64,000 bases of DNA from Diadema setosum (taxonomy: Eukaryota; Echinodermata; Echinoidea; Diadematoida; Diadematidae), in NCBI RefSeq assembly GCF_964275005.1, contig NC_092704.1, positions 12,030,871 to 12,094,870 on the forward strand, written 5' to 3'. Of the stretch, positions 32,974 through 63,806 are shown piece after piece; within the stretch, counting starts at the first letter, position 1; every line of letters starts with the position of its first letter. The notes below the pieces were generated by a model. The model was not told the DNA's origin. It was given only the letters and a program-made list of their open reading frames with translations, and did no database searches. The translations under genes and the position numbers were made by a program.

Positions 32974-33061
32974 CTGGTCAGGAAGAAGTGAGGGGAAAAA
33001 TAACATCGGCATTGGCTTTTGCAGAATATGAACATAACATAACAGAACGTATAACATGAAC

Positions 33062-33088
33062 ATATATATATATATATATATATATATG
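33062..33088. repeat. (TA)n microsatellite in intron
   Basis: Pure TA run. The rest of the intron (33089-34880) shows no supported feature. Confidence 0.9.
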
Positions 33089-35562: not shown

Positions 35563-35726
35563 CTCCAACAAAGTAACATATCGGAGCTAGATATGGAATA
35601 AGTATAGTAACAATGCAACGGTTCATTATCGTTTGCAAGTGTAGTGTACACATGCACGTTAATTACACGTAGTTAGATTTGTATACAGGCCTACATTTTG
35701 AGCAAATGCCAGTGCTTTTCGGTTTC

Positions 35727-35928: not shown

Positions 35929-35976
35929 CTGTCGTGCCGGGAACTGGAGTAGTTGCGGCAGTCGGTGCAGGAGAAG
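35929..35976 (-). CDS. Last PTS exon (divergent, 48 bases)
   Basis: Donor GTACGT and acceptor AAATTACAG flank 48 bases encoding SPAPTAATTPVPGTTG. It is clearly related to the array repeat (SPAPTTAGTTPTG) but longer. Phase is 2-base start, 1-base end, as in all repeat exons. Confidence 0.78.
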
Positions 35977-37082: not shown

Positions 37083-37136
37083 CTGTGGTGCTGGGAGCTG
37101 GACTAGTTGCAGGTGTCGGTGCTGGCGAAGCTGTGC
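37083..37136 (-). CDS. PTS exon, 54 bases
   Basis: Donor GTACGT, acceptor TTGTACACAG. It encodes TASPAPTPATSPAPSTTG, a longer relative of the array repeat, rich in O-glycosylation-type Ser/Thr/Pro. Phase-symmetric. Confidence 0.78.
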
Positions 37137-38244: not shown

Positions 38245-39803
38245 CTGTTGGAATAGTCCCAGCAGTTGTTGGTGCTGGTGAACCAGTGCCTGTCGTACAA
38301 CAATCATTTTATAGAAAAATGCGTCATTAATGTTTATCTAAATATCAGTTATGTCATGTGAAAGTAATACTTGGACGAAGGTCGTTGTAAGAAATACCGA
38401 AATGATGTTTCCTTATAAATGTTTCAGGAGTCACATGGATTTGTTCTTTTTGAATGATTAGTAGATACATTCTACTTGAAACATTTGAATATTTTGTAAG
38501 TTATGGAAACATTTCATATCAAAAACTTCCCTATAAACGTACCTGTTGGAGTAGTCCCAGCAGTTGTTGGTGCTGGCGAACCAGTGCCTGTGTACAACAA
38601 TCATTTCATAGAAAGATGCGTCATTACTGTTAATCTGAATATCAGTTATGTCATATGAAAGTAACACTTGGACGAAGTTTGTTAATTTTCTCTTGTCATG
38701 CAAATTAATCTTTATCTCTATTTCAATATCTTAATATTAAGAAAAAGAAACCATAAATTGTTGATAGCAAAATATGCCACTGGCAGCAATTGCTATAAAA
38801 TAGTCCACGTAGTTCCAGTGCAGTCCTTTCATTCTCCAGGTCGTTGTTAGAAATTCCCAAATGATATTTCCTTATAGATGGTTCAGGAGTCATATGGATT
38901 TGTTCTTTTCGAATGATTAGTAGGTACATCCTACTTGAAACATTAAGTATTTTAGTAAGTTGTGGAAACATTTCGTATCAAAAGGTTCACTATCAACGTA
39001 CCTGTTGGAATAGTCCCAGCAGTTGTTGGTGCTGGTGAACCAGAGCCTGTGTACAACAATCATTTTATAGAAAAATGCGTCATTAATGTTAATCTAAATA
39101 TCAGTTATGTCATGTGAAAGTAACACTTGGAGGAAGGTCGTTGTAAGAAATACCGAAATGATATTTCCTTATAAATGCTTCAGGAGTCACAGGGATTTGT
39201 TCTTTTTGAATGATTAGTAGGTACATCCTACTTGAAACATTTGAATTTTTTGTAAGTTATGGAAACATTTCATATCAAAAAGTTAGCTATAAACGTACCT
39301 GTTGGAGTAGTCCCAGCAGTTGTTGGTGCTGGCGAACCAGTGCCTGTGTACAACAATCATTTCATAGAAAGATGCGTCATTACTGTTAATCTGAATATAA
39401 GTTATGTCATATGAAAGTAACACTTGGACGAAGTTTGTTAATTTTCTCTTGTCATGCAAATTAATCTTTATCTCTATTTCAATATCTTAATATTAAGAAA
39501 AAGAAACCATAAATTGTTGATAGCAAAATATGCCACTGGCAGCAATTGCTATAAAATAGTCCACGTACTTCCAGTGCAGTCCTTTCATTCTCCAGGTCGT
39601 TGTTAGAAATTCCCAAATGATATTTCCTTATAGATGGTTCAGGAGTCATATGGATTTGTTCTTTTCGAATGATTAGTAGGTACATCCTACTTGAAACATT
39701 TTAGTATTTTAGTAAGTTGTGGAAAGATTTCGTGTCAAAAGGTTCACTATCAACGTACCTGTTGGAATAGTCCCAGCAGTTGTTGGTGCTGGTGAACCAG
39801 TGC
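38245..39803 (-). CDS. PTS mini-exon array, block 1 (5 exons of 45 bases)
   Basis: Exons (plus coordinates): 38245-38289, 38543-38587, 39002-39046, 39299-39343, 39759-39803. Each has donor GTACGT and acceptor ending in CAG or ACAG, starts with two bases and ends with one, and encodes TGSPAPTTAGTTPTG (T type) or the same with Ile for the twelfth residue (I type). Types alternate I, T, I, T, I. The exon at 39002 starts with Ser instead of Thr. Seven of fifteen residues in the T type are Ser/Thr and three are Pro, typical of mucin O-glycosylation domains. Intron lengths alternate between about 252 and 414 bases, giving a 756-bp two-exon unit. Confidence 0.82.
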
Positions 39804-42800
39804 CTGTGCAAAACAATTATTTTATAGAAAAATGCGTCATTAATGTTAATCTAAATATCAGTTATGTCATGTGAAAGTAACACTTGGACGAAGGTCGTTG
39901 TAAGAAATACCGAAATGATATTTCCTTATAAATGCTTCAGGAGTCACAGGGATTTGTTCTTTTTGAATGATTAGTAGGTACATCCTACTTGAAACATTTG
40001 AATTTTTTGTAAGTTATGGAAACATTTCATATCAAAAAGTTCCCTATAAACGTACCTGTTGGAGTAGTCCCAGAAGTTGTTGGTGCTGGCGAACCAGTGC
40101 CTGTGTACAACAATCATTTCATAGAAAGATGCGTCATTACTGTTAATCTGAATATCAGTTATGTCATATGAAAGTAACACTTGGACGAAGTTTGTTAATT
40201 TTCTCTTGTCATGCAATTAATCTTTATCTCTATTTCAATATCTTAATCTTAAGAAAAATCAACCATAAATCGTTGATAGGAAAATATGCCATTGGCAGCA
40301 ATTGCTATAAAAAGTCCATGTATTTCCAGTGAAGTGCTTTAATTCTCCAGTTCGTTGTAAGACATTTCAAAATGATATTTACTTATAGATGGTTCAGGAG
40401 TCATATGGATTTGTTCTTTTCGAATGATTAGTAGGTACATCCTCCTTGAAACAATTTAGTATTTTAGTAAGTTGTGGAAAGATTTCATATCAAAAGGTTC
40501 ACTATCAACGTACCTGTTGGAATAGTCCCAGCAGTTGTTGGTGCTGGTGAACCAGTGCCTGAGTACAACAATTATTTCATAGAAAAAAGCGTCATTAATG
40601 TTAATCAAAATATCAGTTATGTTATGTGAAAGTAACACTTGGACGAAGGTCGTTGTAAGAAATACCGAAATGATATTTCCTTATAAATGCTTCAGGAGTC
40701 ACATTGATTTGTTCTTTTTGAATGATTAGTAGGTACATCCTACTTGAAACATTTGAATTTTTTGTAAGTTATGGAAACATTTCATATCAAAAAGTTCCCT
40801 ATAAACGTACCTGTTGGAGTAGTCCCAGCAGTTGTTGGTGCTGGCGAACCAGTGCCTGTGTACAACAATCATTTCATAGAAAGATGCGTCATTACTGTTA
40901 ATCTGAATATCAGTTATGTCATATGAAAGTAACACTTGGACGAAGTTTGTGAATTTTCTCTTGTCATGCAATTGATCTTTATCTCTATTTCAATATCTTA
41001 ATCTTAAGAAAAATAAACCATAAATCGTCGATAGGAAAATATGCCACTGGCAGCAATTGCTATAAAAAGTCCATGTATTTCCAGTGCAGTCCTTTAATTC
41101 TCCAGGGCGTTGTAAGAAATTTCCAAATGATATTTCCTTATAGATGGTTCAGGAGTCATATGGATTTGTTCTTTTCGAATGATTAGTAGGTACATCCTAC
41201 TTGAAACATTTTAGTATTTTAGTAAGTTGTGGAAAGATTTCGTGTCAAAAGGTTCACTATCAACGTACCTGTTGGAATAGTCCCAGCAGTTGTTGGTGCT
41301 GGTGAACCAGTGCCTGTGTACAACAATCATTTCATAGAAAGATGCGTCATTACTGTTAATCTGAATATAAGTTATGTCATATGAAAGTAACACTTGGACG
41401 AAGTTTGTTAATTTTCTCTTGTCATGCAATTAATCTTTATCTCTATTTCAATATCTTAATCTTAAGAAAAATCAACCATAAATCGTTGATAGGAAAATAT
41501 GCCATTGGCAGCAATTGCTATAAAAAAGTCCATGTATTTCCAGTGAAGTGCTTTAATTCTCCAGTTCGTTGTAAGAAATTTCAAAATGATATTTACTTAT
41601 AGATGGTTCAGGAGTCATATGGATTTGTTCTTTTCGAATGATTAGTATGTACATCCTACTTGAAACAATTTAGTATTTTAGTAAGTTGTGGAAAGATTTC
41701 ATATCAAAAGGTTCACTATCAACGTACCTGTTGGAATAGTCCCAGCAGTTGTTGGTGCTGGTGAACCAGTGCCTGAGTACAACAATTATTTCATAGAAAA
41801 AAAGCGTCATTAATGTTAATCAAAATATCAGTTATGTTATGTGAAAGTAACACTTGGACGAAGGTCGTTGTAAGAAATACCGAAATGATATTTCCTTATA
41901 AATACTTCAGGAGTCACAGGGATTTGTTCTTTTTGAATGATTAGTAGGTACATCCTCCTTGAAATATTTGATTTTTTTGTAAGTTATGGAAACATTTCAT
42001 ATCAAAAAGTTCCCTATAAACGTAGCTGTTGGAGTAGTCCAGCAGTTGTTGGTGCTGGCGAACCAGTGCCTGTGTACAACAATCATTTCATAGAAAGATG
42101 CGTCATTACTGTTAATCTGAATATAAGTTATGTCATATGTAAGCAACACTTGGATGAAGTTTGTGAATTTTCTCTTGTCATGCAATTAATCTTTATCTCT
42201 ATTTCAATATCTTAATTTTAAGAAAAATAAACCATAAATCGTTGATAGGAAAATATGCCACTGGCAGCAATTGCTATAAAATAATCCATGTATTTCCAGT
42301 GCAGTCCTTTAATTCTCCAGGTCGTAGGAAGAAATTCCCAAATGATATTTCCTTATAGATGGTTCAGAAGTCATATGGATTTGTTCTTTTCGAATGATTA
42401 GTAGGTACATCCTACTTGAAACATTTAGTATTTTAGTAAGTTGTAGAAAGATTTCATATCAAAAGGTTCACTATCAACGTACCTGTTGGAATAGTCTCAG
42501 CAGTTGTTGGTGCTGGTGAACCAGTGCCTGTGTACAACAATCATTTTATTGAAGAATGCGTCATTAATGTTAATCTAAATATCAGTTATGTCATGTGAAA
42601 GTAACACTTGGACGAAGGGCGTTGTAAGAAATACCGAAATGATATTTCCTTATAAATTCTTCAGGAGTCACAGGGATTTGTTCTTTTTGAATGATTAGTA
42701 GGTACATCCTACTTGAAACATTTGAATTTTTTGTAAGTTATGGAAACATTTCATATCAAAAAGTTCCCTATAAACGTACCTGTTGGAGTAGTCCCAGCAG

Positions 42801-44793
42801 TTGTTGGTGCTGGCGAACCAGTGCCTGTGTACAACAATCATTTCATAGAAAGATGCGTCATTACTGTTAATCTGAATATCAGTTATGTCATATGAAAGTA
42901 ACACTTGGACGAAGTTTGTGAATTTTCTCTTGTCATGCAATTGATCTTTATCTCTATTTCAATATCTTAATCTTAAGAAAAATAAACCATAAATCGTCGA
43001 TAGGAAAATATGCCACTGGCAGCAATTGTTATAAAAAGTCCATGTATTTCCAGTGCAGTCCTTTAATTTTCCAGGGCGTTGTAAGAAATTCCCAAATGAT
43101 ATTTCCTTATAGATGGTTCAGGAGTCATATGGATTTGTTCTTTTCGAATGATTAGTAGGTACATCCTACTTGAAACATTTTAGTATTTTAGTAAGTTGTG
43201 GAAAGATTTCCTGTCAAAAGGTTCACTATCAACGTACCTGTTGGAATAGTCCCAGCAGTTGTTGGTGCTGGTGAACCAGTGCCTGTGCAAAACAATTATT
43301 TTATAGAAAAATGCGTCATTAATGTTAATCTAAATATCAGTTATGTCACGTGAAAGTAACACTTGGACGAAGGTCGTTGTAAGAAATACCGAAATGATAT
43401 TTCCTTATAAATGCTTCAGGAGTCACATGGATTTGTTCTTTTTGAATGATTAGTAGGTACATCCTACTTGAAACATTTGAATTTTTTGTAAGTTATGGAA
43501 ACATTTCATATCAAAAAGTTCCCTATAAACGTACCTGTTGGAGTAGTCCCAGAAGTTGTTGGTGCTGGCGAACCAGTGCCTGTGTACAACAATCATTTCA
43601 TAGAAAGATGCGTCATTACTGTTAATCTGAATATAAGTTATGTCATATGAAAGTAACACTTGGACGAAGTTTGTTAATTTTCTCTTGTCATGCAATTAAT
43701 CTTTATCTCTATTTCAATATCTTAATCTTAAGAAAAATCAACCATAAATCGTTGATAGGAAAATATGCCATTGGCAGCAATTGCTATAAAAAAGTCCATG
43801 TATTTCCAGTGAAGTGCTTTAATTCTCCAGTTCGTTGTAAGAAATTTCAAAATGATATTTACTTATAGATGGTTCAGGAGTCATATGGATTTGTTCTTTT
43901 CGAATGATTAGTAGGTACATCCTACTTGAAACAATTTAGTATTTTAGTAAGTTGTGGAAAGATTTCATATCAAAAGGTTCACTATCAACGTACCTGTTGG
44001 AATAGTCCCAGCAGTTGTTGGTGCTGGTGAACCAGTGCCTGAGTACAACAATTATTTCATAGAAAAAAAGCGTCATTAATGTTAATCAAAATATCAGTTA
44101 TGTTATGTGAAAGTAACACTTGGACGAAGGTCGTTATAAGAAATACCGAAATGATATTTCCTTATAAATACTTCAGGAGTAACATTGATTTGTTCTTTTT
44201 GAATGATTAGTAGGTACATCCTCCTTGAAATATTTGATTTTTTTGTAAGTTATGAAAACATTTCATATCAAAAAGTTCCCTATAAACGTAGCTGTTGGAG
44301 TAGTCCAGCAGTTGTTGGTGCTGGCGAACCAGTGCCTGTGTACAACAATCATTTCATAGAAAGATGCGTCATTACTGTTAATCTGAATATAAGTTATGTC
44401 ATATGTAAGCAACACTTGGATGAAGTTTGTGAATTTTCTCTTGTCATGCAATTAATCTTTATCTCTATTTCAATATCTTAATTTTAAGAAAAATAAACCA
44501 TAAATCGTTGATAGGAAAATATGCCACTGGCAGCAATTGCTATAAAATAATCCATGTATTTCCAGTGCAGTCCTTTAATTCTCCAGGTCGTAGGAAGAAA
44601 TTCCCGTATGATATTTCCTTATAGATGGTTCAGAAGTCATATGGATTTGTTCTTTTCGAATGATTAGTAGGTACATCCTACTTGAAACATTTAGTATTTT
44701 AGTAAGTTGTAGAAAGATTTCATATCAAAAGGTTCACTATCAACGTACCTGTTGGAATAGTCTCAGCAGTTGTTGGTGCTGGTGAACCAGTGC
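39804..44793 (-). repeat. PTS array, higher-order repeat 1, copy a (4990 bp, 13 exon units)
   Basis: Exons: 40056-40100, 40514-40558, 40811-40855, 41269-41313, 41728-41772, 42483-42527, 42780-42824, 43238-43282, 43535-43579, 43994-44038, 44749-44793, plus two broken units of 44 bases at 42026-42069 and 44292-44335. The block repeats at 44794-49783 with an exact 4990-base offset and very few differences. Inside, a 2266-base sub-repeat is seen (41728 to 43994, 42026 to 44292, 42483 to 44749). The exons at 40056 and 43535 encode Ser for one Ala (CAGAAG on plus). Exons at 42483 and 44749 have Glu for Gly. Confidence 0.85.
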
Positions 44794-47700
44794 CTGTGCA
44801 AAACAATTATTTTATAGAAAAATGCGTCATTAATGTTAATCTAAATATCAGTTATGTCATGTGAAAGTAACACTTGGACGAAGGTCGTTGTAAGAAATAC
44901 CGAAATGATATTTCCTTATAAATGCTTCAGGAGTCACATGGATTTGTTCTTTTTGAATGATTAGTAGGTACATCCTACTTGAAACATTTGAATTTTTTGT
45001 AAGTTATGGAAACATTTCATATCAAAAAGTTCCCTATAAACGTACCTGTTGGAGTAGTCCCAGCAGTTGTTGGTGCTGGCGAACCAGTGCCTGTGTACAA
45101 CAATCATTTCATAGAAAGATGCGTCATTACTGTTAATCTGAATATCAGTTATGTCATATGAAAGTAACACTTGGACGAAGTTTGTTAATTTTCTCTTGTC
45201 ATGCAATTAATCTTTATCTCTATTTCAATATCTTAATCTTAAGAAAAATCAACCATAAATCGTTGATAGGAAAATATGCCATTGGCAGCAATTGCTATAA
45301 AAAGTCCATGTATTTCCAGTGAAGTGCTTTAATTCTCCAGTTCGTTGTAAGACATTTCAAAATGATATTTACTTATAGATGGTTCAGGAGTCATATGGAT
45401 TTGTTCTTTTCGAATGATTAGTAGGTACATCCTCCTTGAAACAATTTAGTATTTTAGTAAGTTGTGGAAAGATTTCATATCAAAAGGTTCACTATCAACG
45501 TACCTGTTGGAATAGTCCCAGCAGTTGTTGGTGCTGGTGAACCAGTGCCTGAGTACAACAATTATTTCATAGAAAAAAGCGTCATTAATGTTAATCAAAA
45601 TATCAGTTATGTTATGTGAAAGTAACACTTGGACGAAGGTCGTTGTAAGAAATACCGAAATGATATTTCCTTATAAATGCTTCAGGAGTCACATTGATTT
45701 GTTCTTTTTGAATGATTAGTAGGTACATCCTACTTGAAACATTTGAATTTTTTGTAAGTTATGGAAACATTTCATATCAAAAAGTTCCCTATAAACGTAC
45801 CTGTTGGAGTAGTCCCAGCAGTTGTTGGTGCTGGCGAACCAGTGCCTGTGTACAACAATCATTTCATAGAAAGATGCGTCATTACTGTTAATCTGAATAT
45901 CAGTTATGTCATATGAAAGTAACACTTGGACGAAGTTTGTGAATTTTCTCTTGTCATGCAATTGATCTTTATCTCTATTTCAATATCTTAATCTTAAGAA
46001 AAATAAACCATAAATCGTCGATAGGAAAATATGCCATTGGCAGCAATTGCTATAAAAAGTCCATGTATTTCCAGTGCAGTCCTTTAATTCTCCAGGGCGT
46101 TGTAAGAAATTTCCAAATGATATTTCCTTATAGATGGTTCAGGAGTCATATGGATTTGTTCTTTTCGAATGATTAGTAGGTACATCCTACTTGAAACATT
46201 TTAGTATTTTAGTAAGTTGTGGAAAGATTTCGTGTCAAAAGGTTCACTATCAACGTACCTGTTGGAATAGTCCCAGCAGTTGTTGGTGCTGGTGAACCAG
46301 TGCCTGTGTACAACAATCATTTCATAGAAAGATGCGTCATTACTGTTAATCTGAATATAAGTTATGTCATATGAAAGTAACACTTGGACGAAGTTTGTTA
46401 ATTTTCTCTTGTCATGCAATTAATCTTTATCTCTATTTCAATATCTTAATCTTAAGAAAAATCAACCATAAATCGTTGATAGGAAAATATGCCATTGGCA
46501 GCAATTGCTATAAAAAAGTCAATGTATTTCCAGTGAAGTGCTTTAATTCTCCAGTTCGTTGTAAGAAATTTCAAAATGATATTTACTTATAGATGGTTCA
46601 GGAGTCATATGGATTTGTTCTTTTCGAATGATTAGTATGTACATCCTACTTGAAACAATTTAGTATTTTAGTAAGTTGTGGAAAGATTTCATATCAAAAG
46701 GTTCACTATCAACGTACCTGTTGGAATAGTCCCAGCAGTTGTTGGTGCTGGTGAACCAGTGCCTGAGTACAACAATTATTTCATAGAAAAAAAGCGTCAT
46801 TAATGTTAATCAAAATATCAGTTATGTTATGTGAAAGTAACACTTGGACGAAGGTCGTTGTAAGAAATACCGAAATGATATTTCCTTATAAATACTTCAG
46901 GAGTCACAGGGATTTGTTCTTTTTGAATGATTAGTAGGTACATCCTCCTTGAAATATTTGATTTTTTTGTAAGTTATGGAAACATTTCATATCAAAAAGT
47001 TCCCTATAAACGTAGCTGTTGGAGTAGTCCAGCAGTTGTTGGTGCTGGCGAACCAGTGCCTGTGTACAACAATCATTTCATAGAAAGATGCGTCATTACT
47101 GTTAATCTGAATATAAGTTATGTCATATGTAAGCAACACTTGGATGAAGTTTGTGAATTTTCTCTTGTCATGCAATTAATCTTTATCTCTATTTCAATAT
47201 CTTAATTTTAAGAAAAATAAACCATAAATCGTTGATAGGAAAATATGCCACTGGCAGCAATTGCTATAAAATAATCCATGTATTTCCAGTGCAGTCCTTT
47301 AATTCTCCAGGTCGTAGGAAGAAATTCCCAAATGATATTTCCTTATAGATGGTTCAGAAGTCATATGGATTTGTTCTTTTCGAATGATTAGTAGGTACAT
47401 CCTACTTGAAACATTTAGTATTTTAGTAAGTTGTAGAAAGATTTCATATCAAAAGGTTCACTATCAACGTACCTGTTGGAATAGTCTCAGCAGTTGTTGG
47501 TGCTGGTGAACCAGTGCCTGTGTACAACAATCATTTTATTGAAGAATGCGTCATTAATGTTAATCTAAATATCAGTTATGTCATGTGAAAGTAACACTTG
47601 GACGAAGGGCGTTGTAAGAAATACCGAAATGATATTTCCTTATAAATTCTTCAGGAGTCACAGGGATTTGTTCTTTTTGAATGATTAGTAGGTACATCCT

Positions 47701-49783
47701 ACTTGAAACATTTGAATTTTTTGTAAGTTATGGAAACATTTCATATCAAAAAGTTCCCTATAAACGTACCTGTTGGAGTAGTCCCAGCAGTTGTTGGTGC
47801 TGGCGAACCAGTGCCTGTGTACAACAATCATTTCATAGAAAGATGCGTCATTACTGTTAATCTGAATATCAGTTATGTCATATGAAAGTAACACTTGGAC
47901 GAAGTTTGTGAATTTTCTCTTGTCATGCAATTGATCTTTATCTCTATTTCAATATCTTAATCTTAAGAAAAATAAACCATAAATCGTCGATAGGAAAATA
48001 TGCCACTGGCAGCAATTGTTATAAAAAGTCCATGTATTTCCAGTGCAGTCCTTTAATTTTCCAGGGCGTTGTAAGAAATTTCCAAATGATATTTCCTTAT
48101 AGATGGTTCAGGAGTCATATGGATTTGTTCTTTTCGAATGATTAGTAGGTACATCCTACTTGAAACATTTTAGTATTTTAGTAAGTTGTGGAAAGATTTC
48201 GTGTCAAAAGGTTCACTATCAACGTACCTGTTGGAATAGTCCCAGCAGTTGTTGGTGCTGGTGAACCAGTGCCTGTGCAAAACAATTATTTTATAGAAAA
48301 ATGCGTCATTAATGTTAATCTAAATATCAGTTATGTCACGTGAAAGTAACACTTGGACGAAGGTCGTTGTAAGAAATACCGAAATGATATTTCCTTATAA
48401 ATGCTTCAGGAGTCACATGGATTTGTTCTTTTTGAATGATTAGTAGGTACATCCTACTTGAAACATTTGAATTTTTTGTAAGTTATGGAAACATTTCATA
48501 TCAAAAAGTTCCCTATAAACGTACCTGTTGGAGTAGTCCCAGAAGTTGTTGGTGCTGGCGAACCAGTGCCTGTGTACAACAATCATTTCATAGAAAGATG
48601 CGTCATTACTGTTAATCTGAATATAAGTTATGTCATATGAAAGTAACACTTGGACGAAGTTTGTTAATTTTCTCTTGTCATGCAATTAATCTTTATCTCT
48701 ATTTCAATATCTTAATCTTAAGAAAAATCAACCATAAATCGTTGATTGGAAAATATGCCATTGGCAGCAATTGCTATAAAAAAGTCCATGTATTTCCAGT
48801 GAAGTGCTTTAATTCTCCAGTTCGTTGTAAGAAATTTCAAAATGATATTTACTTATAGATGGTTCAGGAGTCATATGGATTTGTTCTTTTCGAATGATTA
48901 GTAGGTACATCCTACTTGAAACAATTTAGTATTTTAGTAAGTTGTGGAAAGATTTCATATCAAAAGGTTCACTATCAACGTACCTGTTGGAATAGTCCCA
49001 GCAGTTGTTGGTGCTGGTGAACCAGTGCCTGAGTACAACAATTATTTCATAGAAAAAAAGCGTCATTAATGTTAATCAAAATATCAGTTATGTTATGTGA
49101 AAGTAACACTTGGACGAAGGTCGTTATAAGAAATACCGAAATGATATTTCCTTATAAATACTTCAGGAGTAACATTGATTTGTTCTTTTTGAATGATTAG
49201 TAGGTACATCCTCCTTGAAATATTTGATTTTTTTGTAAGTTATGAAAACATTTCATATCAAAAAGTTCCCTATAAACGTAGCTGTTGGAGTAGTCCAGCA
49301 GTTGTTGGTGCTGGCGAACCAGTGCCTGTGTACAACAATCATTTCATAGAAAGATGCGTCATTACTGTTAATCTGAATATAAGTTATGTCATATGTAAGC
49401 AACACTTGGATGAAGTTTGTGAATTTTCTCTTGTCATGCAATTAATCTTTATCTCTATTTCAATATCTTAATTTTAAGAAAAATAAACCATAAATCGTTG
49501 ATAGGAAAATATGCCACTGGCAGCAATTGCTATAAAATAATCCATGTATTTCCAGTGCAGTCCTTTAATTCTCCAGGTCGTAGGAAGAAATTCCCGTATG
49601 ATATTTCCTTATAGATGGTTCAGAAGTCATATGGATTTGTTCTTTTCGAATGATTAGTAGGTACATCCTACTTGAAACATTTAGTATTTTAGTAAGTTGT
49701 AGAAAGATTTCATATCAAAAGGTTCACTATCAACGTACCTGTTGGAATAGTCTCAGCAGTTGTTGGTGCTGGTGAACCAGTGC
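44794..49783 (-). repeat. PTS array, higher-order repeat 1, copy b (4990 bp, 13 exon units)
   Basis: Exons: 45046-45090, 45504-45548, 45801-45845, 46259-46303, 46718-46762, 47473-47517, 47770-47814, 48228-48272, 48525-48569, 48984-49028, 49739-49783, plus broken units 47016-47059 and 49282-49325. Compared with copy a I noted only scattered single-base differences (for example near 41531/46521 and 43214/48204). The copy junction lies in or just after the exon at 44749-44793, whose left flank is of one family and right flank of another. Confidence 0.85.
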
Positions 49784-50035
49784 CTGTGTACAACAATCAT
49801 TTTATTGAAGAATGCGTCATTAATGTTAATCTAAATATCAGTTATGTCATGTGAAAGTAACACTTGGACGAAGGGCGTTGTAAGAAATACCGAAATGATA
49901 TTTCCTTATAAATGCTTCAGGAGTCACAGGGATTTGTTCTTTTTGAATGATTAGTAGGTACATCCTACTTGAAACATTTGAATTTTTTGTAAGTTATGGA
50001 AACATTTCATATCAAAAAGTTCCCTATAAACGTAC

Positions 50036-53000
50036 CTGTTGGAGTAGTCCCAGCAGTTGTTGGTGCTGGCGAACCAGTGCCTGTGTACAACAATCATTTC
50101 ATAGAAAGATGCGTCATTACTGTTAATCTGGATATCAGTTATGTCATATGAAAGTAACACTTGGACGAAGTTTGTTAATTTTCTCTTGTCATGCAATTAA
50201 TCTTCATCTCTATTTCAATATCTTAATCTTAAGAAAAGTAAACCATAAATCGTTGATAGCAAAATATGCCACTGGCAGCAATTGCTATAAAATAGTCCAT
50301 GTATTTCCAGTGCAGTCCTTTCATTCTCCAGGTCGTTGTAAGAAATTCCCAAATGATATTTCCTTATAGATGGTTCAGGAGTCATATGGATTTGATCTTT
50401 CAGAAAGATTAGTAGGTACATCCTACTTGAAACATTTAGTATTTTAGTAAGTTGTGGAAACATTTCGTATCAAAAGGTTCACTATCAACGTACCTGTTGG
50501 AATAGTCCCAGCAGTTGTTGGTGCTGGTGAACCAGAGCCTGTGTACAACAATCATTTTATAGAAAAATGCGTCATTAATGTTAATCTAAATATCAGTTAT
50601 GTCATGTGAAAGTAACACTTGGACGAAGGTCGTTGTAAGAAATACCGAAATGATATTTCCTTATAAATGCTTCAGGAGTCACAGGGATTTGTTCTTTTTG
50701 AATGATTAGTAGGTACATCCTACTTGAAACATTTGAATTTTTTTGTAAGTTATGGAAACATTTCATATCAAAAAGTTCCCTATAAACGTACCTGTTGGAG
50801 TAGTCCCAGCAGTTGTTGGTGCTGGCGAACCAGTGCCTGTGTACAACAATCATTTCATAGAAAGATGCGTCATTACTGTTAATCTGAATATCAGTTATGT
50901 CATATGAAAGTAACACTTGGACGAAGTTTGTGAATTTTCTCTTGTCATGCAATTAATCTTCATCTCTATTTCAATATCTTAATCTTAAGAAAAATAAACC
51001 ATAAATCGTTGATAGGAAAATATGCCACTGGCAGCAATTGCTATAAAAAAGTCCATGTATTTCCAGTGCAGTCCTTTAATTCTCCAGGGCGTTGTAAGAA
51101 ATTCCCAAATAATATTTCCTTATAGATGGTTCAGGAGTCATATGGATTTGTTCTTTTCGAATGATTAGTAGGTACATCCTACTTGAAACATTTTAGTATT
51201 TTAGTAAGTTGTGGAAAGATTTCGTGTCAAAAGGTTCACTATCAACGTACCTGTTGGAATAGTCCCAGCAGTTGTTGGTGCTGGTGAACCAGTCCCTGTG
51301 CAAAACAATTATTTTATAGAAAAATGCGTCATTAATGTTAATCTAAATATCAGTTATGTCATGTGAAAGTAACACTTGGACGAAGGTCGTTGTAAGAAAT
51401 ACCGAAATGATATTTCCTTATAAATGCTTCAGGAGTCACATGGATTTGTTCTTTTTGAATGATTAGTAGGTACATCCTACTTGAAACATTTGAATTTTTT
51501 GTAAGTTATGGAAACATTTCATATCAAAAAGTTCCCTATAAACGTACCTGTTGGAGTAGTCCCAGCAGTTGTTGGTGCTGGCGAACCAGTGCCTGTGTAC
51601 AACAATCATTTCATAGAAAGATGCGTCATTACTGTTAATCTGAATATAAGTTATGTCATATGAAAGTAACACTTGGACGAAGTTTGTGAATTTTCTCTTG
51701 TCATGCAATTAATCTTTATCTCTATTTCAATATCTTAATCTTAAGAAAAATCAACCATAAATCGTTGATAGGAAAATATGCCATTGGCAGCAATTGCTAT
51801 AAAAAAGTCCCTGTATTTCCAGTGAAGTGCTTTAATTCTCCAGTTCGTTGTAAGAAATTTCAAAATGATATTTACTTATAGATGGTTCAGGAGTCATATG
51901 GATTTGTTCTTTTCGAATGATTAGTAGGTACATCCTACTTGAAACATTTTAGTATTTTAGTAAGTTGTAGAAAGATTTCATATCAAAAGGTTCACTATCA
52001 ACGTACCTGTTGGAATAGTCCCAGCAGTTGTTGGTGCTGGTGAACCAGTGCCTGAGTACAACAATTATTTCATAGAAAAAAGCGTCATTAATGTTAATCA
52101 AAATATCAGTTATGTTATGTGAAAGTAACACTTGGACGAAGGTCGTTGTAAGAAATACCGAAATGATATTTCCTTATAAATGCTTCAGGAGTCACATTGA
52201 TTTGTTCTTTTTGAATGATTAGTAGGTACATCCTCCTTGAAATATTTGATTTTTTTGTAAGTTATGGAAACATTTCATATCAAAAAGTTCCCTATAAACG
52301 TACCTGTTGGAGTAGTCCCAGCAGTTGTTGGTGCTGGCGAACCAGTGCCTGTGTACAAAAATCATTTCATAGAAAGATGCGTCATTACTGTTAATCTGGA
52401 TATCAGTTATGTCATGTGAAAGTAACACTTGGACGAAGTTTGTTAATTTTCTCTTGTCATGCAATTAATCTTTATCTCTATTTCAACATCTTAATCTTAA
52501 GAAAAGTAAACCATAAATCGTTGATAGGAAAATATGCCACTGGCAGCAATTGCTATAAAATAGTCCATGTATTTCCAGTGCAGTCCTTTCATTCTCCAGG
52601 TCGTTGTAAGAAATTCCCAAATCATATTTCCTTATATATGGTTCAGGAGTCATATGGATTTGTTCTTTCAGAAAGATTAGTAGGTACATCCTACTTGAAA
52701 CATTTAGTATTTTAGTTATTTGTGGAAACATTTCGTATCAAAAGGTTCACTATCAACGTACCTGTTGGAATAGTCCAAGCAGTTGTTGGTGCTGGTGAAC
52801 CAGTGCCTGTGTACAACAATCATTTCATAGAAAAATGTGTCATTAATGTTAATCTAAATATCAGTTATGTCATATGAAAGTAACACTTTGGACGAAGGTC
52901 GTTGTAAGAAATACCGAAATGATATTTCCTTATAAATGCTTCAAGAGTCACATGGATTTGTTCTTTTTGAATGATTAGTAGGTACATCCTCCTTGAAACA

Positions 53001-53401
53001 TTTGAATTTTTTGTAAGTTATGGAAATATTTCATATCAAAAAGTTCCCTATAAACGTACCTGTTGGAGTAGTCCCAGCAGTTGTTGGTGCTGGTGAGCCA
53101 GTACCTGTGTACAACAATCATTTTATAGAAAAATGTGTCATTAATAATAATCTAAATATCAGTTATGTCATGTGAAAGTAACACTTGGACGAAGGTCGTT
53201 GTAAGAAATACCGAAATGATATTTCCTTATAAATGCTTCAGGAGTCACATGGATTTGTTCTTTTTGAATGATTATTAGGTACATCCTACTTGAAACATTT
53301 GAATTTTTTGTAAGTTATGGAAACATTTCATATCAAAAAGTTCCCTACAAACGTACTTGTTGGAGTAGTCCCAGCAGTTGTTGGTGCTGGCGAGCCAGTG
53401 C
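50036..53401 (-). CDS. PTS mini-exon array, block between the two higher-order repeats (10 exons)
   Basis: Exons: 50036-50080, 50494-50538, 50792-50836, 51251-51295, 51548-51592, 52007-52051, 52304-52348, 52762-52806, 53060-53104, 53357-53401. All are 45 bases with GT donors and AG acceptors. Variants: 52762 has Trp for Gly; 53357 has a weaker donor context (CAA before GTACGT); 53060 has a T-type exon with an I-type right flank, a recombinant. The regular alternation of short and long introns is broken once, at 53060 to 53357 (two short introns in a row). Confidence 0.8.
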
Positions 53402-53519
53402 CTGTGTACAACAATCATTTCATAGAAAGATGCTTCATTACTGCTAATCTGGATATCAGTTATGTCATATGAAAGTAACACTTGGACGAAGTTTGTTAAT
53501 TTTCTGTTGTCATGCAAAT

Positions 53520-56500
53520 TAATCTTTATCTCTATTTCAATATCTTAATCTTAAGAAAAATAAACCATAAATCCTTGATAGCAAAATATGCCACTGACAG
53601 CAATTGCTATAAAATAGTCCATGTATTTCCAGTGCAGTCCTTTCATTCTCCAGGTCGTTGTAAGAAATTCCCAAATGGAATTTCCTTATAGATGGTTTAT
53701 TAGTCATATGGATTTGTTCTTTTCGAATGATTAGTATGTACATCCTACTTGAAACATTTAGTATTTTAGTAAGTTGTGGAAACATTTCATATCAAAAGGT
53801 TCACTATCAACGTACCTGTTGGAATAGTCCCAGCAGTTGTTGGTGCTGGTGAACCAGTGCCTGAGTACAACAATCATTTCATAGAAAGATGCGTCATTAA
53901 TGTTTATCTAAATATCAGTTATGTCATGTGAAAGTAATACTTGGACGAAGGTCGTTGTAAGAAATACCGAAATGATATTTCCTTATAAATGCTTCAGGAG
54001 TCACATGGATTTGTTCTTTTTGAATGATTAGTAGATACATTCTACTTGAAACATTTGAATTTTTTGTAAGTTATGGAAACATTTCATATCAAAAAGTTCC
54101 CTATAAACGTACCAGTTGGAGTAGTCCCAGCAGTTGTTGGTGCTGGCGAACCAGTGCCTGTGTACAACAATCATTTGATAGAAAGATGCGTCATTACTGG
54201 TAATCTTAATATCAGTTATGTCATATGAAAGTTACACTTGGACGAAGTTTGTTAATTTTCTCTTGTCATGCAAATTAATCTTTATCTCTATTTCAATATC
54301 TTAATCTTAAGAAAAATAAACCATAAATCGTTGATAGGAAAATATGACACTGGCAGCAATTGCTATAAAAAAGTCCATGTATTTCCAGTGCAGTCCTTTA
54401 ATTCTCCAGGGCGTTGTAAGAAATTCCCAAATGATATTTCCTTATAGATGGTTCAGGAGTCATATGGATTTGTTCTTTTCGAATGATTAGTAGGTACATC
54501 CTACTTGAGACATTTTAGTACTTTAGTAAGTTGTGGAAAGATTTCATATCAAAAGGTTCACTATCAACGTACCTGTTGGAATAGTCCCAGCAGTTGTTGG
54601 TGCTGGCGAACCAGTGCCTGAGTACAACAATTATTTCATAGAAAAAAGCGTCATTAATGTTAATCAAAATATCAGTTATGTTATGTGAAAGTAACACTTG
54701 GACGAAGGTCGTTGTAAGAAATACCGAAATGATATTTCCTTATAAATGCTTCAGGAGTCACATTGATTTGTTCTTTTTGAATGATTAGTAGGTACATCCT
54801 CTTGTAAGTTATGGAAACATTTCATATCAAAAAGTTCCTTATAAACGTAGCTGTTGGAGTAGTCCAGCAGTTGTTGGTGCTGGCGAACCAGTGCCTGTGT
54901 ACAACAATCATTTCATAGAAAGAGGCATCATTACTGTTAATCTGAATATAAGTTATGTCATATGTAAGTAACACTTGGACGAAATTTGTTAATTTTCTCT
55001 TGTCATGCAAATTAATCTTTATCTCTATTTCAATATCTTAATCTTAAGAAAAATAAGCCATACATCCTTGATAGCAAAATATGCCATTGGCAGCAATTGC
55101 TATAAAATAATCCATGTATTTCAAGTGCAGTCCTTTAATTCTCCAGGTCGTAGGAAGAAATTCCCAAATGATATTTCCTTATAGTTGGTTCAGGAGTCAT
55201 ATGGATTTGTTCTTTTCGAATGATTAGTAGGTACATCCTCCTTGAAATATTTGAATTTTTTGTAAGTTATAGAAACATTTCATATCAAAAAGTTCCCTAC
55301 AAACGTACCTGTTGGAGTAGTCCCAGCAGTTGTTGGTGCTGGCGAACCAGTGCCTGTGTACAACAATCATTTCATAGAAAGATGCGTCATTACTGTTAAT
55401 CTGAATATCAGTTATATCATATGAAAGTAGCACTTGGAAGAAGTTTGTTAATTTTCTCTTGTCATGCAAATTAATCTTTATCTCTATTTCAATATCTTAA
55501 TCTTAAGAAAAATAAACCATAAATCCTTCATAGCAAAATATGCCATTGGCAGCAATTGCTATAAAATAATCCATGTATTTCCAGTGCAGTCCTTTAATTC
55601 TCCAGGTCGTTGGAAGAAATTCCCAAATGATATTTCCTTATAGATGGTTCAGGAGTCATATGGATTTGTTCTTTTCGAATGATTAGTAGGTACATCCTAC
55701 TTGAAACATTTAGTATTTTAGTAAGTTGTAGAAAGATTTCATATCAAAAGGTTCACTATCAACGTACCTGTTGGAATAGTCCCAGCAGTTGTTGGTGCTG
55801 GTGAAGCAGTGCCTGTGTACAACAATCATTTTATTGAAAAATGCGTCATTAATGTTAATCTAAATAACAGTTATGTCATGTGAAAGTAACACTTGGACGA
55901 AGGGCGTTGTAAGAAATACCGAAATGATATTTCCTTTAAATGCTTCAAGAGTCACAGGGATTTGTTCTTTTTGAATGATTAGTAGGTACATCCTACTTGA
56001 AACATTTGAATTTTTTGTAAGTTATGGAAACATTTCACATCAAAGAGTTCCCTATAAACGTACCTGTTGGAGTAGTCCCAGCAGTTGTTGGTGCTGGCGA
56101 ACCAGTTCCTGTGTACAACAATCATTTCATAGAAAGATGCGTCATTACTGTTAATCTGAATATAAGTTATGTCATATGTAAGCAACACTTGGACGAAGTT
56201 TGTGAATTTTCTCTTGTCATGCAATTAATCTTTATCTCTATTTCAATATCTTAATCTTAAGAAAAATAAACCATAAATCGTTGATGGGAAAATATGCCAC
56301 TGGCAGCAATTGCTTTAAAAAAGTCCATGTATTTCATGTGTAGTCCTTTAATTCTCCAGGGCGTTGTAAGAAATTCCCAAATGATATTTCCTTATAGATG
56401 GTTCAGGAGTCATATGGATTTGTTCTTTTCGAATGATTAGTAGGTACATCCTACTTGAAACATTTTAGTATTTTAGTAAGTTGTGGAGAGATTTCATATC

Positions 56501-58197
56501 AAAAGGTTCACTATCAACGTACCTGTTGGAATAGTCCCGGCAGTTGTTGGTGCTGGCGAACCAGTTCCTGTGTACAACAATCATTTCATAGAAAGATGCG
56601 TCATTACTGTTAATCTGAATATAAGTTATGTCATATGAAAGTAACACTTGGACGAAGTTTGTTAATTTTCTCTTGTCATGCAATTAATCTTTATCTCTAT
56701 TTCAATATCTTAATCTTAAGAAAAATAAACCATAAATCGTTGATGGGAAAATATGCCACTGGCAGCAATTGCTTTAAAAAAGTCCATGTATTTCACGTGT
56801 AGTCCTTTAATTCTCCAGGGCGTTGTAAGAAATTCCCAAATGATATTTCCTTATAAATGCTCCAGGAGTCACATGGATTTGTTCTTTTTGAATGATTAGT
56901 AGGTACATCCTACTTGAAACATTTGAATTTTTTGTAAGTGATGGAAACATTTCATATCAAAAAGTTCCCTATAAACGTACCTGTTGGAATAGTCCCAGCA
57001 GTTGTTGGTGCTGGCGAACCAGTGCCTGTGTACAACAATCATTTCATAGAAAGATGCGTCAGTACTGTTAATCTGAATTTCAGTTATGTCATGTGAAAGT
57101 AACACTTGGACGAAGGTCGTTGTAAGAAATACCGAAATGATATTTCCTTATAAATGCTTCAGGAGTCACATGGATTTGTTCTTTTTGAATGATTAGTAGG
57201 TACATTCTCCTTGAAATATTTGAATTTTTTGTAAGTTATGGAAACATTTCATATCAAAAAGTTCCCTACAAACGTACTTGTTGGAGTAGTCCCAGCAGAT
57301 GTTGGTGCTGGCGAACCAGTGCCTGTGTACAACAATCATTTCATAGAAAGATGCGTCATTACTGTTAATCTGAATATCAGTTATGTCATATGAAAGTAAC
57401 ACTTGGACGAAGTTTGTTAATTTTCTGTTGTCATGCAAATTAATCTTTATCTCTATTTCAATATCTTAATCTTAAGAAAAATAAACCATAAATCCTTGAT
57501 AGCAAAATATGCCACTGAGAGCAATTGCTATAAAATAGTCCATGTATTTCCAGTGCAGTCCTTTCATTCTCCAGGTCGTTGTAAGAAATTCCCAAATGGA
57601 ATTTTATTATAGATGGTTTATTAGTCATATGGATTTGTTCTTTTCGAATGATTAGTATGTACATCCTACTTGAAACATTTAGTATTTTAGTAAGTTGTGG
57701 AAACATTTCATATCAAAAGGTTCACTATCAACGTACCTGTTGGAATAGTCCCAGCAGTTGTTGGTGCTGGTGAACCAGTGCCTGAGTACAACAATCATTT
57801 TATAGAAAAATCCGTCATTAATGTTTATCTAAATATCAGTTATGTCATGTGAAAGTAATACTTGGACGAAGGTCGTTGTAAGAAATACCGAAATGATATT
57901 TCCTTATAAATGCTTCAGGAGTCACATGGATTTGTTCTTTTTGAATGATTAGTAGATACATTGTCCTTGAAACATTTGAATTTTTTGTAAGTTATGGAAA
58001 CATTTCATATCAAAAAGTTCCCTATAAAAGTACCTGTTGGAGTAGTCCCAGCAGTTGTTGGTGCTGGCGAACCAGTGCCTGTGTACAACAATCATTTCAT
58101 AGAAAGATGCGTCATTACTGGTAATCTTAATATCAGTTATGTCATATGAAAGTTGCACTTGGACGAAGTTTGTTAATTTTCTCTTGTCATGCAAATT
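53520..58197 (-). repeat. PTS array, higher-order repeat 2, copy a (about 4678 bp, 12 exon units)
   Basis: Exons: 53816-53860, 54113-54157, 54573-54617, 55309-55353, 55768-55812, 56064-56108, 56523-56567, 56981-57025, 57278-57322, 57737-57781, 58034-58078, plus a broken 44-base unit at 54851-54894. The block repeats rightward with a 4677-4678 base offset up to 56523, then with 4219. The left boundary is approximate (53401-53537). Exon 55768 has Ala for Gly in TGSP; exons 57278 and 54113 have altered last bases before the donor. Confidence 0.78.
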
Positions 58198-61100
58198 AAT
58201 CTTTATCTCTATTTCAATATCTTAATCTTAAGAAAAATAAACCATAAATCCTTGATAGCAAAATATGCCACTGACAGCAATTGCTATAAAATAGTCCATG
58301 TATTTCCAGTGCAGTCCTTTCATTCTCCAGGTCGTTGTAAGAAATTCCCAAATGGAATTTCCTTATAGATGGTTTATTAGTCATATGGATTTGTTCTTTT
58401 CGAATGATTAGTATGTACATCCTACTTGAAACATTTAGTATTTTAGTAAGTTGTGGAAACATTTCATATCAAAAGGTTCACTATCAACGTACCTGTTGGA
58501 ATAGTCCCAGCAGTTGTTGGTGCTGGTGAACCAGTGCCTGAGTACAACAATCATTTTATAGAAAAATCCGTCATTAATGTTTATCTAAATATCAGTTATG
58601 TCATGTGAAAGTAATACTTGGACGAAGGTCGTTGTAAGAAATACCGAAATGATATTTCCTTATAAATGCTTCAGGAGTCACATGGATTTGTTCTTTTTGA
58701 ATGATTAGTAGATACATTGTACTTGAAACATTTGAATTTTTTGTAAGTTATGGAAACATTTCATATCAAAAAGTTCCCTATAAACGTACCTGTTGGAGTA
58801 GTCCCAGCAGTTGTTGGTGCTGGCGAACCAGTGCCTGTGTACAACAATCATTTCATAGAAAGATGCGTCATTACTGGTAATCTTAATATCAGTTATGTCA
58901 TATGAAAGTTACACTTGGACGAAGTTTGTTAATTTTCTCTTGTCATGCAAATTAATCTTTATCTCTATTTCAATATCTTAATCTTAAGAAAAATAAACCA
59001 TAAATCGTTGATAGGAAAATATGCCACTGGCAGCAATTGCTATAAAAAAGTCCATGTATTTCCAGTGCAGTCCTTTAATTCTCCAGGGCGTTGTAAGAAA
59101 TTCCCAAATGATATTTCCTTATAGATGGTTCAGGAGTCATATGGATTTGTTCTTTTCGAATGATTAGTAGGTACATCCTACTTGAAACATTTTAGTACTT
59201 TAGTAAGTTGTGGAAAGATTTCATATCAAAAGGTTCACTATCAACGTACCTGTTGGAATAGTCCCAGCAGTTGTTGGTGCTGGTGAACCAGTGCCTGAGT
59301 AAAACAATTATTTCATAGAAAAAAGCGTCATTAATGTTAATCAAAATATCAGTTATGTTATGTGAAAGTAACACTTGGACGAAGGTCGTTGTAAGAAATA
59401 CCGAAATGATATTTTCCTTATAAATGCTTCAGGAGTCACATTGATTTGTTCTTTTTGAATGATTAGTAGGTACATCCTCTTGTAAGTTATGGAAACATTT
59501 CATATCAAAAAGTTCCTTATAAACGTAGCTGTTGGAGTAGTCCAGCAGTTGTTGGTGCTGGCGAACCAGTGCCTGTGTACAACAATCATTTCATAGAAAG
59601 AGGCATCATTACTGTTAATCTGAATATAAGTTATGTCATATGTAAGTAACACTTGGACGAAATTTGTTAATTTTCTCTTGTCATGCAAATTATTCTTTAT
59701 CTCTATTTCAATATCTTAATCTTAAGAAAAATAAGCCATACATCCTTGATAGCAAAATATGCCATTGGCAGCAATTGCTATAAAATAATCCATGTATTTC
59801 AAGTGCAGTCCTTTGATTCTCCAGGTCGTAGGAAGAAATTCCCAAATGATATTTCCTTATAGTTGGTTCAGGAGTCATATGGATTTGTTCTTTTCGAATG
59901 ATTAGTAGGTACATCCTCCTTGAAATATTTGAATTTTTTGTAAGTTATAGAAACATTTCATATCAAAAAGTTCCCTACAAACACACCTGTTGGAGTAGTC
60001 CCAGCAGTTGTTGGTGCTGGCGAACCAGTGCCTGTGTACAACAATCATTTCATACAAAGATGCGTCATTACTGTTAATCTGAATATCAGTTATATCATAT
60101 GAAAGTAGCACTTGGACGAAGTTTGTTAATTTTCTCTTGTCATGCAAATTAATCTTTATCTCTATTTCAATATCTTAATCTTAAGAAAAATAAACCATAA
60201 ATCCTTGATAGCAAAATATGCCATTGGCAGCAATTGCTATAAAATAATCCATGTATTTCCAGTGCAGTCCTTTAATTCTCCAAGTCGTTGGAAGAAATTC
60301 CCAAATGATATTTCCTTATAGATGGTTCAGGAGTCATATGGATTTGTTCTTTTCGAATGATTAGTAGGTACATCCTACTTGAAACATTTAGTATTTTAGT
60401 AAGTTGTAGAAAGATTTCATATCAAAAGGTTCACTATCAAAGTACCTGTTGGAATAGTCCCAGCAGTTGTTGGTGCTGGTGAACCAGTGCCTGTGTACAA
60501 CAATCATTTTATTGAAAAATGCGTCATTAATGTTAATCTAAATATCAGTTATGTCATGTGAAAGTAACACTTGGACGAAGGGCGTTGTAAGAAATACCGA
60601 AATGATATTTCCTTTAAATGCTTCAGGAGTCACAGGGATTTGTTCTTTTTGAATGATTAGTAGGTACATCCTACTTGAAACATTTGAATTTTTTGTAAGT
60701 TATGGAAACATTTCACATCAAAGAGTTCCCTTTAAACGTACCTGTTGGAGTAGTCCCAGCAGTTGTTGGTGCTGGCGAACCAGTTCCTGTGTACAACAAT
60801 CATTTCATAGAAAGATGCGTCATTACTGTTAATCTGAATATAAGTTATGTCATATGAATGTAACACTTGGACGAAGTTTGTTAATTTTCTCTTGTCATGC
60901 AATTAATCTTTATCTCTATTTCAATATCTTAATCTTAAGAAAAATAAACCATAAATCGTTGATGGGAAAATATGCCACTGGCAGCAATTGCTATAAAAAA
61001 GTCCATGTATTTCATGTGTAGTCCTTTAATTCTCCAGGGCGTTGTAAGAAATTCCCAAATGATATTTCCTTATAGATGGTTCAGGAGTCATATGGATTTG

Positions 61101-62420
61101 TTCTTTTCGAATGATTAGTAGGTACATCCTACTTGAAACATTTTAGTATTTTAGTAAGTTGTGGAGAGATTTCATATCAAAAGGTTCACTATCAACGTAC
61201 CTGTTGGAATAGTCCCAGCAGTTGTTGGTGCTGGCGAACCAGTGCCTGTGTACAACAATCATTTCATAGAAAGATGCGTCAGTACTGTTAATCTGAATTT
61301 CAGTTATGTCATGTGAAAGTAACACTTGGACGAAGGTCGTTGTAAGAAATACGAAATGATATTTCCTTATAAATGCTTCAGGAGTTACATGGATTTGTTC
61401 TTTTTGAATGATTAGTAGGTACATTCTCCTTGAAATATTTGAATTTTTTGTAAGTTATAGAAACATTTCATATCAAAAAGTTCCCTACAAACGTACTTGT
61501 TGGAGTAGTCCCAGCAGTTGTTGGTGCTGGCGAACCAGTGCCTGTGTACAACAATCATTTCATAGAAAGATGCGTCATTACTGTTAATCTGAATATCAGT
61601 TATGTGATATGAAAGTAACACTTGGACGAAGTTTGTTAATTTTCTCTTGTCATGCAAATTAATCTTCATCTCTATTTCAATATCTTAATCTTAAGAAAAA
61701 TAAACCATAAATCCTTGATAGCAAAATATGCCAGTGACAGCAATTGCTATGAAATATTTCATGTATTTCCAGAGCAGTCCTTTCATTCTCCAGGTCGTTG
61801 TAAGAAATTCCCAAATGAAATTTCCTTATAGATGGTTCAGGAGTCATATGGATTTGTTCTTTTCGAATGATTAGTAGGTACATCCTACTTGAAACATTTA
61901 GTATTTTAGTAAGTTGTGGAAACATTTCATATCAAAAGGTTCACTATCAAAGTACATGTTGGAATAGTCCCAGCAGTTGTTGGTGCTTGTGAAGCAGTAC
62001 CTGTGTACAACAATCATTTTATAGAAAAATGCGTCATTAATAATAATCTAAATATCAGTTATGTCATGTGAAAGTAACACTTGGATGAAGGTCGTTGTAA
62101 GAAATACCGAAATGATATTTCCTTATAAATGCTTCAGGAGTCACATGGATTTGTTCTTTTTGAATGATTAGTAGGTACATTCTCCTTGAAATATTTGAAT
62201 TTTTTGTAAGTTATAGAAACATTTCATATCAAAAAGTTCCCTACAAACGTACTTGTTGGAGTAGTCCCAGCAGTTGTTGGTGCTTGCGAACCAGTGCCTG
62301 TGTACAACAATCATTTCATAGAAAGATGCGTCATTACTGTTAATCTGAATATCAGTTATGTGATATGAAAGTAACACTTGGACGAAGTTTGTTAATTTTC
62401 TCTTGTCATGCAAATTAATC
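58198..62420 (-). repeat. PTS array, higher-order repeat 2, copy b (11 exon units, one unit deleted)
   Basis: Exons: 58493-58537, 58790-58834, 59250-59294, 59987-60031, 60446-60490, 60742-60786, 61201-61245, 61497-61541, 61956-62000, 62253-62297, plus a broken 44-base unit at 59529-59572. It matches copy a, but the exon at 61201 has the left flank of 56523 and the right flank of 56981, so one 459-base unit was deleted by recombination in the exon. Exon 59987 has donor GTGTGT; exon 61956 ends in CAT before its donor. Confidence 0.78.
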
Positions 62421-62711
62421 TTTATCTCTATTTCAATATCTTAATCTTAAGAAAAATAAACCATAAATCCTTGATAGCAAAATATGCCAGTGACAGCAAT
62501 TGCTATAAAATATTTCATGTATTTCCAGTGCAGTCCTTTCATTCTCCAGGTCGTTGTAAGAAATTCCCAAATGAAATTTCCTTATAGATGGTTCAGGAGT
62601 CATATGGATTTGTTCTTTTCGAATGATTAGTAGGTACATCCTACTTGAAACATTTAGTATTTTAGTAAGTTGTGGAAAGATTTCATATCAAAAGGTTCAC
62701 TATCAACGTAC

Positions 62712-63806
62712 CTGTTGGAATAGTCCCAGCAGTTGTTGGTGCTGGCGAACCAGTGCCTGTGTACAACAATCATTTCATAGAAAGATGCGTCAGTACTGTT
62801 AATCTGAATTTCAGTTATGTCATGTGAAAGTAACACTTGGACGAAGGTCGTTGTAAGAAATACCGAAATGATATTTCCTTATAAATGCTTCAGGAGTCAC
62901 ATGGATTTGTTCTTTTTGAGTGATTAGTAGGTACATCCTACTTGAAACATTTGAATTTTTTGTAAGGTATGGAAACATTTCATATCAAAAAGTTCCCTAT
63001 AAACGTACCTGTTGGAGTAGTCCCAGCAGATGTTGGTGCTGGCGAACCCGTGCCTGTGTACAACAATCATTTCATAGAAAGATGCGTCATTGCTGTTAAT
63101 CTGAATTTCAGTTATGTCATGAGAAAGTAATACTTGGACGAAGGTCGTAAGAAATACCGAAATGATATTTCCTTATAAATGGTTCAGGAGTCACATGGAT
63201 TTGTTCTTTTTGAATGATTAGTAGGTACATCCTCCTTGAAATATTTGAATTTTTTGTAAGTTATGGAAACACTTCATATCAAAAAGTTCCCTACAAACGT
63301 ACTTGTTGGAGTAGTCCCAGCAGATGTTGGTGCTGGCGAACCAGTGCCTGTGTACAACAATCATTTCATAGAAAGATGCGTCATTACTGTTAATCTGAAT
63401 ATCAGTTATGTCATATGAAAGTAACACTTGGACGAAGTTTGTTAATTTTCTGTTGTCATGCAAATTAATCTTTATCTCTATTTCAATATCTTAATCTTAA
63501 GAAAAATAAACCATAAATCCTTGATAGCAAAATATCCCACTGACAGCAATTGCTATAAAATAGTTCATGTATTTCCAGTGCAGTCCTTTCATTCTCCAGG
63601 TCGTTGTAAGAAATTCCCAAATGAAATTTCCTCATAGATGGTTTAGGAGTCAAATGGATTTGTTCTTTTCGAATGATTAGTGGGTACATCCTACTTGAAA
63701 CATTTAGTATTTTAGTAAGTTGTGGAAACATTTCATATCAAAAGGTTCACTATCAACGTACCTGTTGGAATAGTCCCAGCAGTTGTTGGTGCTGGTGAAC
63801 CAGTGC
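62712..63806 (-). CDS. PTS mini-exon array, rightmost block (4 exons; array continues past the window)
   Basis: Exons: 62712-62756, 63009-63053, 63303-63347, 63762-63806. Two T-type exons follow each other with a short intron (63009 and 63303), another break in the alternation. The intron sequence right of 63806 is still array type up to the window end, so further upstream exons are expected beyond 64000. Confidence 0.8.

Follow-up and report, generated by a model that had tools for sequence, protein, structure and literature searches.

In the sea urchin Diadema setosum, a stretch of 64,000 nucleotides (nt) on chromosome C20 (NC_092704.1; C20:12030871-12094870, hereafter the window, whose own numbering is used for positions without a prefix) carries on its minus strand an array of very short exon-like units. 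This array probably belongs to a mucin gene of the gel-forming type, as its Pro/Thr/Ser-rich (PTS) region for O-glycosylation, the bulk of which would be encoded in about 200 tandem phase-1 exons of 45 nt. That the array exceeds chance expectation is not in doubt. An earlier note on the window had described 68 such units at 38245-63806 (minus strand), and this span is exact to the base, with the outermost exons at 63762-63806 and 38245-38289. An alignment-based recount again gave 68 units (62 of 45 nt and six of 44 nt), 62 of which retain an AG, 45 nt, and a GT. The units encode a 15-residue Thr/Pro/Ser repeat in two main types, TGSPAPTTAGTTPTG and TGSPAPTTAGTIPTG, and the 62 intact units account for 930 residues, the approximate figure given before. 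After flanking sequence had been fetched on both sides and joined into a 264-kb stretch, the array was followed rightward past the window, as had been anticipated, to C20:12153994. The size of 68 units is therefore right for the window, and the whole array comprises 203 units over 85 kb, of which 193 are intact (AG, 45 nt, GT, stop-free). The earlier observation is thus confirmed as real, and its interpretation is partly supported.

The spacing of the units is mostly about 297 and about 459 bases, which together form a 756-base two-exon module. Across the whole array, 96 of the 202 inter-unit introns measure 245-260 nt, 95 measure 405-420 nt, and 11 have other lengths, in agreement with the two classes of about 252 and 414 bases first proposed; the idea that introns were amplified together with exons is likewise supported by the sequence. 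Stops close every one of the 202 introns in all three frames, the read-through frame included; thus, the units can be joined only by splicing. The donor reads CAG/GTACGT in 157 of the 190 scorable matches among 230 (diverged relatives included) from a fuzzy splice scan, and every junction seen is in phase 1. Because both borders of a unit share this phase, a unit can be skipped without a frameshift. When the 193 intact units are joined, they yield 2895 residues consisting of 36.4% Thr, 19.9% Pro, and 7.8% Ser. Two gaps without units interrupt the array, at C20:12124937-12128835 (3.9 kb) and C20:12143501-12146313 (2.8 kb), and within the second, at about C20:12144509-12146002, the plus strand has long open frames of a repetitive kind. 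In the unit at 61956-62000 (minus strand), the last exon base is altered, so that splicing to the following unit would yield Cys rather than Gly or Ser; an extra disulfide in the PTS region is possible.

On its 5′ side, the array is preceded by VWD-C8-TIL exons and then by a conventional long PTS exon with a phase-1 donor; on its 3′ side, it is followed by a C-terminal domain and then by a VWF-like cystine knot. Three features of gel-forming (VWF-type) mucins are thereby present, namely the VWD-C8-TIL order on the N-terminal side, a Pro/Thr/Ser-rich PTS region, and a C-terminal cystine knot (CTCK). Their usual organization, which is not a requirement, places the PTS in a single large exon; here, 45-nt units with closed introns stand beside a separate long PTS exon. 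The initial description of a mucin PTS domain in which each repeat is its own spliced exon is therefore sound by sequence for the array and incomplete for the gene, which also has the ordinary long exon. The cystine-knot exon expected downstream lies at 28782-29087 (minus strand) and encodes a VWF-type CTCK fold. In a Pfam scan of ten fragments of this expanded gene, six exceeded the cut-off (three TIL, one C8, and two VWD), and genome-wide profile searches placed VWD at C20:12165962 and C8 at C20:12163938 and 12188382. One PTS repeat per exon, the mark of Muc13-type genes, is also found. The CTCK C-terminus argues against membership of that type, and a Pfam scan for a SEA domain, limited to the C-terminal protein model P0005, returned none.

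Several lines of evidence suggest that the units are real exons. Around the array and in an adjoining twin gene, 30 diverged PTS micro-exons were delimited by the nearest AG and the best donor, with no frame rule imposed. One of the 30 lacked a usable border, and in 26 of the remaining 29 the length was divisible by three, although a binomial figure for this proportion would be overstated, as many of the micro-exons are homologous twin-to-twin pairs. The three that fail may be decayed. Among the 203 aligned units, one distinct indel event was found in the exon compared with 7.6 expected from the flanking introns (Poisson P 0.004, with distinct alleles counted as independent events). Relative to the intron rate, the frequencies in the two unit types, respectively, are 0.41 and 0.69 for non-synonymous alleles and 0.75 and 0.87 for synonymous ones. 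In addition, the D. setosum paralogue P0007, an NCBI protein from another chromosome (C2), has a 51-nt phase-1-1 PTS exon joined directly to a C-terminal exon of the same kind; this is an annotated model, and its join was identified by visual inspection of the sequence.

The defective units are informative in the same respect. All six non-intact units of the window are copies of one frameshifted 44-nt variant in which the donor GT is also gone. They lie on the minus strand at 59529-59572 (GT changed to CT; coordinates derived from the core position) and, according to the alignment-based count, at 54851-54894, 49282-49325, 47016-47059, 44292-44335, and 42026-42069. Beyond the window, the acceptor AG is missing from four further units, whose frame is unbroken. 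Broken frames are thus confined to units already without splicing, and they look like one event copied six times. Because the splice donor has been lost, the six 44-nt units are probably skipped.

Other origins of the repeat were considered and rejected. The junction between two units, GGGACTAYTCCAACAG/GCACTGGTTCRCCAGCACC, joined as a 35-mer, has no exact match in the genome and, allowing up to three mismatches, none on either strand of the 264 kb; a processed copy elsewhere was therefore discarded. Coding on the opposite strand was set aside as well, a search of the joined 264-kb stretch for the repeat peptide on the plus strand having given no match. Against a transposon or other dispersed repeat, a probe of 301 bases taken from a unit's long intron matched inside the array only (124 matches, all on C20), in a non-exhaustive search that scored 40 of 109 candidates and in which the twin's own copies were not among the matches listed.

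The twin gene, with matching exons, is located at about C20:11920871-11975000. Its best aligned array flanks are 93-97% identical to those of the expanded gene, and identity further 5′ is 81-95%. Where the expanded gene has 203 units of the family, the twin possesses two, of which one is intact and the other has lost its donor; a decayed third is perhaps present. Between the twins, the ratio of non-synonymous to synonymous divergence (dN/dS) was calculated for the VWD, C8, C-terminal domain, and CTCK exons, TIL being left out on account of stretches of unequal length. The first three gave 0.065 (10 differences), 0.12 (three differences), and 0.21 (five differences), respectively. Mean identity within a unit type, flanks included, is 95%, and a 9.7-kb block is repeated at 98.4%; because of these similarities, array growth seems to have continued through multi-unit exchange. 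A plausible sequence of events would be a local gene duplication, after which unequal exchange, involving both the 756-bp two-exon module and blocks of several kilobases, would have enlarged the array. Alternatively, contraction in the twin may have taken place instead of growth in the expanded gene.

A number of points weigh against reading the array as the PTS region of a working mucin. Mutual agreement among the intact units is weak evidence, given that they were copied from one another; for the same reason, the 62 intact units out of 68 are not independent observations, and a like caution applies to the alleles treated as independent in the indel test. The stop-free state of the units was dropped as evidence for exons, as only one to two of 135 possible single substitutions create a stop. 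Three of the ten Pfam-scanned fragments had no match, and the CTCK fragment matched below threshold only. The CTCK exon has a dN/dS of about 0.86 between the twins, on eight differences. None of the public protein models found enters the array. P0001 (“mucin-2-like [Diadema setosum]”) represents the 5′ part of the twin; it goes out of frame beyond the C8 exon, and its last part lies in the long PTS exon, read in a shifted frame. P0005 has as its start an internal Met on the 3′ side of the array, and its structural model has a mean predicted local distance difference test (pLDDT) score of 41.8. The protein searches used queries of 554, 477, and 298 residues and covered proteins 0.55-1.75 times as long as the query; thus, a longer full-length model could have escaped them.

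For their part, the segments of P0001 map to the twin at 97.7-100% identity, with one at 90.7%, and P0005 matches the knot exon of the expanded gene exactly. Coverage of the mucin genes seems to be incomplete in both models. A protein from D. antillarum, P0006, also starts 3′ of the expected position of the array.

Among the alternatives, the best placed is an intronic satellite, in which splicing would use a single micro-exon or a few, the remaining units forming an intronic tandem repeat that is skipped and is homogenized by recent duplication and gene conversion. The youth and likeness of the units (the 95% mean identity and the 98.4% block), the two units of the twin with one donor lost, the absence of the array from the public models found, and the 10 of 203 units already broken would all fit such a repeat. 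However, compared with the flanking intron, the exon is poor in indels and non-synonymous changes, and the sole frameshift lies on a donor-dead unit; a satellite is unlikely. An error of assembly, with the copy number inflated or collapsed and a true array that is much shorter, is very unlikely. HiFi reads do not span 85 kb, and near-identical blocks reach 9.7 kb. The D. setosum assembly was made from HiFi reads (PMC13264686), and the copy number may not be exactly resolved; nevertheless, many units are individually distinct, the joined 264 kb contain zero N, and both edges of the array pass into sequence shared with the twin. That the expanded copy is a mostly dead gene, a pseudogene or unexpressed, with the twin doing the work, is likewise very unlikely: the CTCK ratio, the lack of a full-length public model within the searched length range, and one TAG at the edge of the C8 match (also present in the twin and the C2 copy, and so probably an intron end) stand against the low dN/dS of 0.065-0.21 in the VWD, C8, and C-terminal domain exons, on three to 10 differences each, and the exact match of P0005 to the knot exon.

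If the array is indeed the PTS region of the mucin, pre-mRNA splicing would include most intact units, giving up to about 2,900 PTS residues, and phase-1-1 exons could be included or skipped in any number. Some skipping along the 85 kb is likely, because donors and acceptors are nearly identical throughout. The mRNA would then probably form a ladder of lengths, since the units are symmetric as well as nearly alike and skipping is free of frame cost. It is tentatively proposed, as a possibility that falls somewhat short of a favored conclusion, that PTS length is set at splicing, with about 200 interchangeable frame-neutral exons giving rise, within each animal, to mucins of a wide range of lengths, and that the twin pair (two versus 203 units) may represent a natural experiment in approximately 100-fold expansion of an exon array without breakage of the gene.

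The exons between the array and the cystine knot, all on the minus strand, can be delineated as follows. Two diverged PTS micro-exons of 48 nt, both phase 1-1 and taken from the printed sequence, lie 3′ of the array at 37083-37130 (ASPAPTPATSPAPSTT, with another in-frame AG 6 nt upstream) and 35929-35976 (ASPAPTAATTPVPGTT). The first exon of the C-terminal domain (35294-35586) begins APICYFVGELICGTDIV and has a phase-1 acceptor in frame with the PTS exons; a join matching it is present in the annotated paralogue P0007. The second exon, placed by sequence match, occupies 34884-35049 with approximate borders. From there to the knot, short exons, mostly with Cys, are spread over 30183-33735 by match to P0005, at 33688-33735 (a weak match), 32945-32974, 30579-30686, and 30183-30224. 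They are VWC-like by eye only, P0005 having no Pfam match over the cut-off. Elsewhere in the window, the open reading frame listing alone gives a 1530-residue frame at 579-5168 on the plus strand, which resembles the polyprotein of a Ty3/gypsy-type retroelement.

Related domains also occur beyond the gene pair. To the left of the twin, on the same strand, more VWD and C8 exons were found at C20:11881288-11900882, and these may belong to a third mucin gene in this cluster. VWD and C8 matches, many with equal scores, were additionally found at C4:13805431-14010420 and C16:29794546-30099283. Their periods of about 3.3 kb in parts of C4 and about 3.4 kb in parts of C16 indicate tandem VWD-C8 arrays that were recently amplified and are perhaps FCGBP-like genes.

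Short symmetric exons in large numbers are known from the micro-exon genes of schistosomes, in which skipping keeps the frame. Those genes encode unrelated small secreted proteins and are not known to be tandem copies of one unit at such a scale. In Xenopus, Probst and co-workers reportedly found in 1992 that the 33-base repeats of FIM-B.1 are separate genomic units, seemingly alternatively spliced cassettes; this is a vertebrate gene, and its repeat is of 11 residues as opposed to 15 in D. setosum. FIM-C.1 of Xenopus is described as polymorphic through alternative splicing (PMC7177656). The closest precedent is chicken Muc13. Its PTS is encoded in multiple exons with one repeat per exon, unlike all mucins described earlier, in which the PTS domain occupied a single large exon (Lang, Hansson and Samuelsson, 2006; PMC1552070). 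The 20-residue repeats recognized there number at least 12, with one expressed sequence tag in support, and the authors proposed that splicing could set the PTS length (PMC1552070). The earlier note, which knew of no described gene of this design, consequently needs correction on this point. Both genes have one PTS repeat per exon, and the 45-nt exon array departs from the single large exon of the older mucins. Muc13 is a transmembrane SEA mucin with 12 or more 20-residue repeats, whereas the D. setosum gene is of the VWD/CTCK type, with 203 units of 15 residues, and is known from genomic sequence. In having VWD, C8, and TIL before the PTS, it resembles MUC2/MUC5-type gel-forming mucins and the Lytechinus pictus proteins P0002 and P0003, the first of which shares 55% identity with the joined query across 49% of the latter. 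A survey of the open-licence literature, judged by titles and the beginnings of abstracts, turned up no echinoderm case of a mucin with one repeat per exon. The one-repeat-per-exon design is thus already known, and its scale here is extreme; as far as seen, what is new is this scale, its occurrence in a VWD/CTCK mucin of an echinoderm, and the adjoining unexpanded twin.

Arrays of this kind may be widely missed; the public models found for the gene pair stop short of the array. If the array is used as proposed, the gene would to our knowledge rank among the most exon-rich in any animal. It would also offer a hard test for exon definition, with about 200 exons of 45 nt whose borders are nearly identical. 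Mucin repeats are usually seen as variable number tandem repeats within one exon, where a change in copy number alters the protein directly. Here, in contrast, copy number would be buffered by splicing, such that a unit could be lost through a dead splice site with the frame unharmed.

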